From: Nitrosophilus kaiyonis | GTDB lineage: Bacteria; Campylobacterota; Campylobacteria; Campylobacterales; Nitratiruptoraceae | Assembly (NCBI RefSeq): GCF_027943725.1 | Contig: NZ_AP025696.1 | Coordinates: forward strand, 1,217,501 to 1,281,500 | DNA length: 64,000 bases | Direction: 5' to 3' | Shown: piece by piece, positions 16,989 through 34,455 of the stretch | How positions within the stretch are numbered: the first letter of the stretch is position 1 | Layout: each line of letters opens with the position of its first letter | Made by a program: the position numbers and the translations under genes | The notes under the pieces: model-generated | What the model was told of the DNA's origin: nothing | Databases searched by the model: none | Seen by the model: only the letters and a program-made list of their open reading frames with translations

Positions 16989-17092
16989 TGGAAGAGGGGC
17001 ATAGCGGGATAGTAGAAAAGCGGTGAAGGAGTGAAGCGGGGAAGCTGTGAAGAGAAAAATTTACTAATTTCCAATGACTAATGTCCAATTAA
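16989..17092 (+). repeat. Octamer array followed by heptamer array (copy A)
   Basis: Nine contiguous 8-bp units from 16989 (GTGGAAGA, GGGGCATA, GCGGGATA, GTAGAAAA, GCGGTGAA, GGAGTGAA, GCGGGGAA, GCTGTGAA, then a degenerate one), followed at 17065-17092 by four 7-bp units (CTAATTT, CCAATGA, CTAATGT, CCAATTA). It fills the gap between the deacetylase and DASS transporter genes and ends 18 bp before the transporter ATG. The unit order is close to that of copy B (18509 onwards). Confidence 0.8.
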
Positions 17093-31737: not shown

Positions 31738-32208
31738 ATGGAACAAAATAAACGCTATAGACCAAACGTTGCAGCAATTGTGCTCTCTTCAAAATATCCA
31801 GAAAAAGTAGAGTTTATGATAGCGCTAAGAAATGATGTTGCAAATGCATGGCAGTTTCCTCAAGGTGGAATTGATGAAGGCGAGAGTCCGAAAGAGGCTC
31901 TTTTGAGAGAGTTAAAAGAAGAAATAGGAACAGATGAGGTAGAAATTATCGCTGAATATCCAGAATGGATAAGTTATGATTTTCCAAAAGTTATTGCAAA
32001 AAAGATGTATCCATATGATGGTCAAAAACAGAAATATTTTTTAGTTCGTTTAAAACCAAAAGCAAAAATAGATCTTGATACAAAGCATCCTGAATTTAAA
32101 GAGTTTAAATTTGTTCCATATAAAGACCTTTTTAAATATATAACCTATTTTAAAAGACCAATTTATAAAAAAGTAATAGATTATTTTAAAAAAAAGGGAT
32201 ATATTTAA
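31738..32208 (+). CDS. rppH: RNA pyrophosphohydrolase
   Basis: Removes pyrophosphate from 5' ends of mRNA, opening it for decay; also called NudH or InvA. 156 residues, RYRPNVAAIVLSSKYP and the Nudix box GGIDEGESPKEALLRELKEE, with the RppH hallmark AWQFPQGG and YPYDGQKQKYF. GAGGTGAT Shine-Dalgarno. Downstream gap to lysC contains a heptameric repeat array. Confidence 0.93.
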   Translation: MEQNKRYRPNVAAIVLSSKYPEKVEFMIALRNDVANAWQFPQGGIDEGESPKEALLRELKEEIGTDEVEIIAEYPEWISYDFPKVIAKKMYPYDGQKQKYFLVRLKPKAKIDLDTKHPEFKEFKFVPYKDLFKYITYFKRPIYKKVIDYFKKKGYI

Positions 32209-32270
32209 GTTTGAAATTTTAAGTTTGAAGTTTTCAAAAACTTTAGACTTAAAACTTCAAAAATAAAGGA
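32208..32270 (+). repeat. Heptameric array with internal dyad between rppH and lysC
   Basis: Nine 7-bp units (AGTTTGA, AATTTTA, AGTTTGA, AGTTTTC, AAAAACT, TTAGACT, TAAAACT, TCAAAAA, TAAAGGA). TTGAAGTTTT (32225-32234) and AAAACTTCAA (32251-32260) are perfect inverted arms. The last unit carries the AAAGGA ribosome binding site of lysC. Confidence 0.65.
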
Positions 32271-32275
32271 TTTTG

Positions 32276-33481
32276 ATGTTGATTGTTCAAAAGTATGGTG
32301 GAACAAGTGTTGGTTCCCTTGAAAGAATAGAAAATGTTGCAAAAAGAGTTGCAAAAACAAAAGATGCTGGAAATGATGTTGTTGTGGTTGTTTCAGCTAT
32401 GAGTGGAGAGACAAATAAACTAATAGAATATGCAAAACATTTTAGTTCAACTCCAAGTAGAAAAGATATGGATCTTCTTTTAAGTTCAGGCGAGAGAGTA
32501 ACAGCTGCTCTTTTATCAATAGCTTTAAATGAGATGGGTTATCCTACTGTTGCAATGACAGGTAGGCAAGCTGGAATAGTAACTGATAGTTCTCATACTA
32601 TGGCGAGAATTGAAAAAATTGATCCAGAACCTATTAAAAATGAGCTTGAAAAAGGAAAAATTGTTGTAGTCGCAGGTTTTCAAGGAATTAGCAAAGATGG
32701 AAGAGTAACAACTCTTGGAAGAGGTGGTAGCGATTTGACTGCTGTTGCTCTTGCTGGAGCTTTAAAAGCAGATAAATGTGAAATATATTCTGATGTTGAT
32801 GGAGTATATACAACAGATCCAAGAATTGAGCCAAAAGCAAAAAAACTTGATAAAATAAGTTATGATGAGATGCTTGAGCTTGCAAGTCTTGGAGCGAAAG
32901 TTTTACAAAATAGAAGTGTTGAACTTGCAAAGAAACTAGGTGTAGTAATTGAGGCAAAAAGCAGTTTTAATGATAATCCAGGAACAATAATAACAAAGGA
33001 AGAAGATATCATGGAAAAGCCATTGGTGAGTGGAATCGCATTAGATAAAAATCAAGCAAGAGTTAGCTTAAGAGGTGTTATTGATAGACCAGGAATTGCA
33101 GCTGAAATTTTTAAAGCATTAGCTAATGAAAATATTAATGTAGATATGATTGTTCAAACAATAGGTCAAGATGGAAAGACAAATCTTGATTTTACTGTGC
33201 CTGAGAATGAGTTAGAACGTGTAAAAAAGATAATGGAAAAATTTAAAGATGAGTATGAAAAAGTTGAGTATGATCCAAATATTGCAAAAGTATCTATTGT
33301 TGGTGTTGGAATGAAATCTCATAGCGGAGTTGCAAGTAAAGCTTTTGAAACATTGGCAAAAGAGAATATTAATATTGAGATGATAAGTACAAGCGAAATC
33401 AAAATCTCAATGATAATAGATGAAAAATATAGCGAACTTGCAGTTAGAGCATTGCATGATGCTTATGAGTTGTATAGATGA
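32276..33481 (+). CDS. lysC: Aspartate kinase
   Basis: First step of the aspartate family (lysine, threonine, methionine, diaminopimelate). 401 residues: kinase domain with [31 protein letters not shown] and [27 protein letters not shown], and two C-terminal ACT domains (about 265-400: [20 protein letters not shown] and [19 protein letters not shown]). Fused ACT domains imply feedback control by lysine or threonine. ATG 32276 fits AAAGGA better than the adjacent TTG 32273. Followed by the unusual non-coding region 33482-33895. Confidence 0.96.
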
Positions 33482-33751
33482 GCGAGGGCAAAGCGAAGCT
33501 TTAAGCAAGCAAACTGCTTTGCTTACTGGCGTATGCTATGCTCACTTCGTTCGCATAAACGCATCGCCGTGCGGAGCTACAAACGGCAAGCAGTTGTCGT
33601 TTGCTTAACGCTCCTCCCGTCTCGAAGCGAAAGCTATAAGTATATGCGAAGCCGAAATTCAAGGAATTTCGTGTCTGAGCATACGAACAGCTGGTTTACC
33701 TTAAAACAAACGAAGTTGAGCAAAGCGAAACAAGTTTGCGATTAGATTTGA
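33482..33751. other. Hairpin-rich, GC-shifted island downstream of lysC
   Basis: About 270 bp of clearly higher G+C than all neighbours, starting right after the lysC stop. Visible hairpins: AAAGC-GAA-GCTTT (33490-33502); a 9-bp stem with one wobble, 33581-33589 with 33594-33602, loop GCAG; and CGAAATTC-AAG-GAATTTCG (33653-33671). Longer-range complements: 33507-33514 with 33599-33606, and 33537-33543 with 33677-33683. Open frames across it give low-complexity Arg/Ser/Leu-rich protein and no ribosome binding site, so I see no gene. It could be a decayed mobile element or a structured RNA. Confidence 0.6.
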
Positions 33752-33895
33752 GTGAATGAGGGGATAAGGGGATAAGGTGGTAAGCAGTGAAGGGGTGAAG
33801 CTGTGAAGCAGTGAAGCGGTCAATTCCCAAGTCTTAATTACCAATGACTAATGACTAATTTACTTATCACTAATCTCGAATTACGAATTAAAACT
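33752..33895 (+). repeat. Octamer array followed by heptamer array (copy C)
   Basis: Nine 8-bp units (33752-33823): GTGAATGA, GGGGATAA twice, GGTGGTAA, GCAGTGAA, GGGGTGAA, GCTGTGAA, GCAGTGAA, GCGGTCAA. Then 7-bp units from about 33824, clearest at 33841-33889 (CCAATGA, CTAATGA, CTAATTT, ACTTATC, ACTAATC, TCGAATT, ACGAATT). It ends directly before the hobA ribosome binding site. Confidence 0.8.
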
Positions 33896-33909
33896 GAATA
33901 GAGGAAAAT

Positions 33910-34455
33910 ATGGAATTTGATAGATGGACTCTAAATGCTATCAGATATGATGAAGCTATGATGAGCTGGATGGAAGAGAGGCGCTATGACTGGGTGCCTC
34001 TTGCTGCTTCTGCTCTTGAAAAGATAATAACAGGTCAAAGCATTATTGTTATTACAGATAAAGAGAGAGAATGGTTTGGTGAATATATAATATATTCATT
34101 AAATAAGCCAGATAAAAACAGGCCTCTCATTCCTACATATCTTTTAAAAAACATTACTCCTTATATTGACAATATAAAAAAAGATGAAGATATTGATCTT
34201 TTATATGATATGTTAAATCTATCATTTAAAGATGAATATTTTTTCTGGTATATTGGAAGAAGTGATACTCCAAGGAGTATGATTGCAAAAAGAAAAGATG
34301 ATAGCTTTTTGTGGATAATGGATGAACAGATGCAAAACAATTTTTATCTAAAATCATATGATGAGCTTTTGGATTTAAAGCTTTTTCAGTTATTTAGACT
34401 TTTTGATAAAAGTTTAGATGCAGCAATTTTTGGCGAAATTGAATTTAAAGTATGA
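33910..34455 (+). CDS. hobA: DnaA-interacting initiator-associating factor HobA
   Basis: 181 residues. Campylobacterota-specific tetramer that binds domain I of DnaA and stimulates orisome assembly at oriC; structural homologue of DiaA. The C-terminal part is the most recognisable against Helicobacter HobA: DSFLWIMDEQMQNNFYLKSY, LLDLKLFQLFRLFDKSLDAA. Position between lysC and holB-folP is the same as in Helicobacter and Campylobacter as I remember them. AGAGGAAAAT Shine-Dalgarno follows directly on the repeat array; overlaps holB by 4 bp. Confidence 0.88.
   Translation: MEFDRWTLNAIRYDEAMMSWMEERRYDWVPLAASALEKIITGQSIIVITDKEREWFGEYIIYSLNKPDKNRPLIPTYLLKNITPYIDNIKKDEDIDLLYDMLNLSFKDEYFFWYIGRSDTPRSMIAKRKDDSFLWIMDEQMQNNFYLKSYDELLDLKLFQLFRLFDKSLDAAIFGEIEFKV

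Follow-up and report, generated by a model that had tools for sequence, protein, structure and literature searches.

BOX elements of Streptococcus pneumoniae are modular intergenic repeats with an optional middle module and stable stem-loops, and HEARO elements are inserted at RTGA. REP/BIME repeats, which are accompanied by RAYT transposases, have been described in gammaproteobacteria (PMC2817692), and stem-loop sequence families, that is, repeated intergenic sequences that can be folded, have been catalogued in bacterial genomes (PMC2267715). Here, we analyzed an intergenic island between lysC and hobA in a stretch of 64,000 nucleotides from Nitrosophilus kaiyonis (the window). With moderate confidence, we interpret this island as a composite copy of a dispersed, mobile and structured repeat, some copies of which would act as intercistronic or 3'-end elements of mRNAs.

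Anatomy of the island between lysC and hobA

The G+C content of positions 33482-33751 was 0.463, compared with a window mean of 0.277 (SD 0.049, 270-nt windows); values this high were found in 0.14% of 270-nt windows, and all windows within two points of it belonged to this locus. These values (46% versus 28% window-wide) bear out the initial annotation, which had described an island of about 270 bp with raised G+C between lysC and an array of octamers. The upstream ORF is lysC (32276-33481, + strand), the stop codon of which is the start of the repeat unit and the protein product of which was used to find the relatives; the downstream ORF is hobA-like (33910-34455, + strand) and follows lysC in relatives too. 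No convincing ORF was present in 33482-33751, as had been claimed, and a coding gene was rejected, the only ORFs being unsupported ones of 53-70 amino acids. A tRNA search of the island found none. Against Rfam 15, including HEARO, nothing reached the gathering threshold, and what matched at E values up to 5 was due to chance. The RNA folding z-scores of the island relative to dinucleotide shuffles were –3.6 (+ strand) and –2.9 (– strand).

A covariance model of the repeat (R1) matched positions 33477-33755 on the + strand (151.7 bits, E 2.1e-34), overlapping the TGA of lysC; the repeat proper runs from this codon (33479-33481), and the part of it that carries the fold extends to about 33744. 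The 5' part of the unit (33482-33525, + strand) was delimited from the sequence, the motif positions and the structure counted on 23 paralogues, and consists of the 5' strand of P1 (GCGAGGGC, 33482-33489), the P2 hairpin AAAGC-GAA-GCTTT (33490-33502) and the P3 hairpin with a CTGC loop (about 33505-33526). The 3' part (33619-33744, + strand), based on the paralogue alignment and pair counts, contains the 3' strand of P1 followed by P5, P6, P7 and P8; P7 is the hairpin CGAAATTC-AAG-GAATTTCG (33653-33671, + strand), as placed by the paralogue alignment. The family ends in CGGTTA, and the window copy ends in CGATTA. Between the two parts lies a reversed short member of the family (form B, model R2; 33526-33620, – strand; 101.5 bits, E 2.4e-20), to which R1 alone responds weakly (– strand, E 0.005). 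The R2 match includes a P1 arm with a CTGC-loop hairpin (– strand; 33580-33603 in the + strand view) and a TATGC..GCATA arm (33537-33557, – strand). Bases 33526-33620 are missing from most paralogues; three composite copies of this genome have them, in an identical position after P3 and ahead of the 3' strand of P1. The window copy is thus a composite, in which a full unit on the + strand (the A form) encloses a short relative on the – strand.

The hairpins reported earlier were recovered within this arrangement. P2 is present, P7 lies exactly where it had been placed, and a claimed 9-bp hairpin at 33581-33602 corresponds to CAAACGGCAAGCAGTTGTCGTTTG at 33580-33603, with one G.T pair. The loop of the insert is GCAG in + strand orientation and complementary to the CTGC loop of the outer P3, which explains the longer-range pairings that had also been noted.

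The unit is followed by purine-rich degenerate octamers of the AAGCGGTG type (33745-33823, + strand; tandem repeat detection) and by degenerate heptamers of the CCAATGACTAATG type (33824-33890, + strand), which precede the ribosome binding region of hobA. Such octamers and heptamers flank most copies in this genome, where their order is repeated, and they also occur without the unit. This order is nearly constant in many intergenic regions (GGTGGTAAG, then CAGTGAAGC, CCAATTCC and TAATGACTAATG), and the series was seen with or without the folded unit at 33752-33890 and 17018-17089 of the window and in the flanks of loci L129-L158. This series resembles the STRR repeats of cyanobacteria and the TAACTGA repeats of Beggiatoaceae (PMC4679880). 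Between a NUDIX gene and lysC, at 32207-32270, heptamers of the AAGTTTG type were also observed, with inverted versions of them behind. No T-run (U-run) follows the window unit, and an intrinsic terminator at this position was rejected accordingly; elsewhere, T-run/A-run stems do contain some short-form copies.

It had been expected that relatives would show almost no gap between lysC and hobA. In relatives, hobA follows lysC almost directly or with an unrelated short sequence between them, and among the lysC-hobA regions of near relatives none was a precise empty counterpart of the window copy. In Hydrogenimonas MAGs (L059, L069), this gap contains heptamer arrays of its own (GTGAACA, CATTCAC) around a different hairpin.

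A dispersed family in the genome and in Campylobacterales

A sequence search of the genome (1.77 Mb, one contig) with positions 33482-33900 as the query, a check that had been suggested for 33482-33751, returned 62 matching pieces. The corresponding covariance search, with R1 built from 23 copies, identified 31 strong copies (E < 1e-25) and a few fragments, and many relatives of the same bacterial family also carry R1 copies; the island is not unique, so that uniqueness, named at the outset among the refuting conditions, does not hold. The family consensus, of about 180 nt, reads RTGA|GCGAGGGCAAAGCGAAGCTTTAAGACAACAACTGCTTGTTGTCTGTGCCCGAGCGAAAGCTG...GGTTTACCTTGAAG...CGGTTA, and RTGA precedes 26 of the 31 copies. 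Copies within this genome are 80-90% alike. Even L148, the only one whose site is also occupied in relatives, has its nearest neighbors among the other copies of this genome. This likeness and clustering indicate a recent multiplication in this genome.

We examined the wider distribution with R2, the short-form model derived from 20 sequences. At E ≤ 1e-3, matches were obtained in 95 of 249 genomes and 37 of 73 genera of the order, many with E values between 1e-8 and 1e-20, and in a sample of the phylum, all of the 54 genomes (out of 298) that matched at 1e-4 belonged to Campylobacterales. Specificity was examined over 585 kb, made up of the window plus 80 further loci, of which 27 came from outside Campylobacterota; no match was observed beyond the window. 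Viral contigs totaling 160 kb gave no model match, so that 18 stretches in them that fit the sequence pattern are apparently due to chance, and blastn against plasmid and phage collections gave no match. The family is previously uncatalogued: no Rfam family matches it, and no description was found in the open literature, the coverage of which was incomplete. These results reveal a large structured repeat family across an order of deep-sea chemolithotrophs, host-associated bacteria and pathogens.

Conserved fold

Because the default RNAalifold consensus mispaired several arms, we counted pairs on a structure deduced by hand, which comprises P1 with a tandem GA/GA mismatch, the GCGAAGC hairpin P2, P3 with its CTGC loop, P5, P6, P7 with its AAG loop, and P8. 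On a plain MAFFT alignment of the 23 A-form paralogues, 92.0% of cells were paired, compared with 31-45% when the partners were slid by one to three columns, a control that somewhat favors the structure as it was derived from the sequences counted. Changes on both sides were observed in 21 of 44 pairs. The covariation was 0.285, compared with 0.127 ± 0.009 in shuffled alignments, none of 500 of which reached this value, although this count is not a probability as the paralogues are akin; the slid control and the changes in place at frr-pyrE (see below) are the stronger evidence. For the short form, 94.8% of cells were paired, and 21 of 27 pairs exhibited double changes. P1, P5 and P6, which join distant strands across junctions, covary too, and unpaired positions are likewise conserved in the paralogue alignment. 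These counts show that the predicted fold is maintained by paired substitutions.

The mismatched cells were G.T in 42 and A.C in 25 cases in one count, and 11 and 8 in the other. An RNA helix should clearly favor G.U; this weak excess of G.T therefore leaves room for a folded DNA strand. Of the initial proposal of a structured RNA, the structure thus stands, with strong covariation, and it may be that of an RNA or of a folded single strand of DNA.

Mobility and insertion into CRISPR repeats

In a relative (G003), two copies of a long form (L215, L216) are 97% identical over 306 bp and have abrupt ends in unrelated flanks. Inverted repeats (TAATTGA...TCAATTA) form their termini, and each copy folds into a single long, branched hairpin that carries the R2 core at the tip (DNA folding z-score –7.4). 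At both loci and at L311 of G002, a foldback of about 300 bp was noted that combines this position of the R2 core with a terminator-like T-run/A-run stem and terminal inverted repeats that are long but imperfect, and G053, from another family, has a comparable foldback arrangement with other arms. No terminal inverted repeats were seen at the window copy.

Further copies interrupt CRISPR repeats, between arms CCCGATTT and GGGGATTGAG, in G002 (three loci), G003, G006, G008 (two loci) and G012 (L217, L218, L219, L203, L227, L230, L231 and L237). The interrupted repeat is the last of its array in the repeat-spacer direction, except for one G002 locus with a solitary repeat. The three G002 copies are not independent insertions because their right flank is common to all three. 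Several CRISPR-borne copies have a closing helix AGTGAGC/GCTCACT, target duplication was seen at these copies only as a degenerate TTTGA-like sequence, and in G036 a different type of CRISPR repeat is interrupted by the short form. The persistence of insertions at the old end of the array may reflect survivorship. The recurrence of the element in terminal CRISPR repeats is unusual, and the uninterrupted repeats that accompany it in the array offer a natural comparison of the site before and after insertion.

Taken together, the foldback copies, the nesting, the CRISPR insertions and the presence or absence of copies among relatives show that members of the family move; for the A form seen in the window, we infer movement from the copy number and not from an empty site. 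In the initial suggestion of a decayed mobile element, the decay finds no support, since the fold is intact and holds a second member. The search for an enzyme that could mobilize these elements covered three domains. Y1 transposase (PF01797) was absent here and in G002, G003 and G006-G008, each of which has many copies, and was detected in all five control genomes; TnpB (PF07282) was absent here and in G002 and G006-G008; and the RRXRR (IscB-type) domain had no match in 22 genomes, with controls that were equally silent.

Placement behind genes and conservation in place

Between genes arranged in tandem, the unit has the sense orientation in 18 of 21 cases in this genome (P = 0.0015) and in 23 of 26 cases in relatives (P = 9e-5, with orthologous sites that are not independent). 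Many copies start at the stop codon of the upstream gene (lysC, frr, tsf, grpE), and the upstream genes in this genome are varied, functionally unrelated housekeeping genes (identified by eye). The unit follows tsf in G006, G007 (in tandem), G008, G013 and G016, is truncated there in G009, G012 and G021, and is absent in others. It lies between frr and pyrE in G003, G006, G008, G009, G017 and G021, is decayed or reduced in G018 and G007, and is absent in this genome and others; between grpE and dnaK, it was found in G002, G003 and G004. The short form occupies the 16S-23S spacer of the examined rRNA operons of G006 and G008, and the stop codons of fabG and groEL in another family (genes identified by eye).

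Several of these sites have individual features. A fabG-like stop codon is the start of a member in three families, namely at L195 in this genome (between fabG-like and acpP-like genes), L354 (G152) and L328 (G119), as judged by eye. At the 3' end of tsf in G007 (L197), about three units are arrayed in tandem with a period of about 172 nt, and the later ones have no 5' strand of P1. At frr-pyrE (L260/L261, from G007/G009), G009 has the unit plus a second P2-P3 piece and G007 has one such piece, as if the unit had been lost by recombination between the two pieces.

The frr and grpE copies, and most tsf copies, have their nearest relatives at the corresponding site of other genomes and are therefore orthologous. 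The identity of the frr-pyrE unit between genomes is 0.76-0.92, while fourfold-degenerate sites of frr have identities of 0.19-0.45 for 14 of 15 genome pairs, the remaining, closely related pair (G017-G021) being at 0.72; the unit is far more alike than these sites and is therefore under selection there. Several pairs at frr-pyrE have changed on both sides, for example in alignment columns 15-56 and 16-55 (P1), 71-122 (P5), and 85-110 and 89-105 (P7). At tsf, P1 includes the stop codon, and where G016 has TAA instead of TGA, the opposite strand of the helix carries the matching change (GTGAGGCA/TGCCTCAC to GTAAGGCA/TGCTTTAC). These sequence comparisons show that some copies, at frr-pyrE and tsf, have passed vertically from species to species; for frr-pyrE, strong conservation was measured. 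Any host function cannot be essential, because many genomes have no copy where others keep one.

Interpretation

The family is mobile, and it is constrained at frr-pyrE. We propose that the repeat spreads as a non-autonomous foldback or structured element, mobilized by an enzyme, and that, after landing in a transcript, it would be tolerated or retained through an action of the folded transcript in cis. Such an action might be that of a REP-like intercistronic or 3'-end structure, which would shield the upstream message from 3' decay or uncouple the expression of the genes on its two sides. As a member of the young, lineage-specific set, the lysC-hobA copy need not itself have a function. A broader formulation, which we put forward only tentatively, is that an order-wide family of mobile folded elements, moved by some enzyme, has been recruited to form intercistronic and 3'-terminal RNA structures in housekeeping operons (frr-pyrE, grpE-dnaK, tsf, fabG, groEL), rRNA spacers and CRISPR array ends of Campylobacterales. 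The family links two questions, namely how non-coding foldback repeats spread without a recognizable transposase and whether they are taken over as 3'-end or intercistronic structures of mRNAs.

An explanation that we regard as rather unlikely, yet deserving of weight, is a purely selfish foldback, whose fold would serve only as single-stranded DNA in transposition or recombination; the position behind genes would then result from target choice (RTGA stops, and palindromes such as CRISPR repeats or terminators) and from the purging of harmful insertions. The copies with terminal inverted repeats, the near symmetry of G.T and A.C mismatches and the frequent RTGA are consistent with this explanation, and GCGAAGC mini-hairpins are very stable in DNA. 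Nesting and sense bias need no host role either. However, the conservation at frr-pyrE does, as the orthologues there are long-lived, lie far above the neutral level and have acquired compensatory changes.

That same conservation, together with the sense bias and the position between co-transcribed genes, would also fit an ordinary, non-mobile cis-regulatory RNA (an attenuator, a terminator or a riboswitch-like element) spread by duplication and inheritance. We consider this improbable, since the upstream genes are functionally unrelated, about 30 young copies occur in one genome, members are nested or inserted into CRISPR repeats and rRNA spacers, boundaries in unrelated flanks are abrupt, and the window unit has no trailing U-run. 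Still less probable is that the covariation is a by-product of quasi-palindrome correction, in which template switching during replication restores pairing without selection. Such correction would yield perfect local hairpins and symmetric G.T and A.C mismatches, but not the covariation of P1, P5 and P6 across junctions, the conservation of unpaired positions or the conserved sequence at frr-pyrE.

Comparison with known systems

It is hardly credible that the island is left over from an element of a known kind (HEARO/OMEGA RNA, an IS200/IS605 end, an integron attC site or a tRNA-related fragment): the RTGA insertion point recalls HEARO, and several copies end at the 3' side in GTTAGAT/GTTAAAT, which resembles the core site of attC, but Rfam and tRNA searches gave no match, the genome has neither Y1 nor TnpB nor RRXRR (with silent controls for the last), the copies are scattered and not arrayed, and the inverse core RYYYAAC was not seen by eye at the 5' end. 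The corresponding class assignments were each rejected, HEARO/OMEGA, which the RTGA flank had prompted, for want of an Rfam match, of TnpB in this genome and of RRXRR (controls silent), IS200/IS605 or another TnpB-linked element for want of TnpB, and attC as its core motif was found by eye on one side only.

The preferred reading, a mobile structured repeat with some copies acting in mRNAs, places the family beside several described systems. Like HEARO/OMEGA elements, it is structured and mobile with RTGA at the insertion point, but it differs in having no Rfam match even at E 5 and no RRXRR match, for which the controls were silent. Like MITEs and other foldback elements, it is non-coding and of high copy number, and the form of about 300 bp in G003, with two copies in unrelated flanks, has terminal inverted repeats; in contrast, none were seen in the window form, and no matching transposase was found.

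The resemblance to REP/BIME repeats is that the copies are dispersed, folded and intergenic, lie mostly behind genes in transcripts and, if mobile, are mobilized in trans. However, the family is longer, at about 180 nt, and multi-branched, and the genome lacks a Y1 transposase. The initial description as a REP-like block thus holds for a dispersed folded repeat with 31 strong copies, but not for REP in the strict sense; high-copy dispersed imperfect palindromes were found without the RAYT-type Y1 transposase, and REP/RAYT membership was rejected. The modular and intergenic organization, the optional middle module and the stable stem-loops recall BOX elements, whereas the middle module here comes from the family itself, in reverse orientation. 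The family works like REP, BOX and foldback repeats, outside Rfam and without a RAYT. In general class, it belongs with the stem-loop families catalogued in bacterial genomes, and the evidence presented here includes covariation and orthologous conservation.
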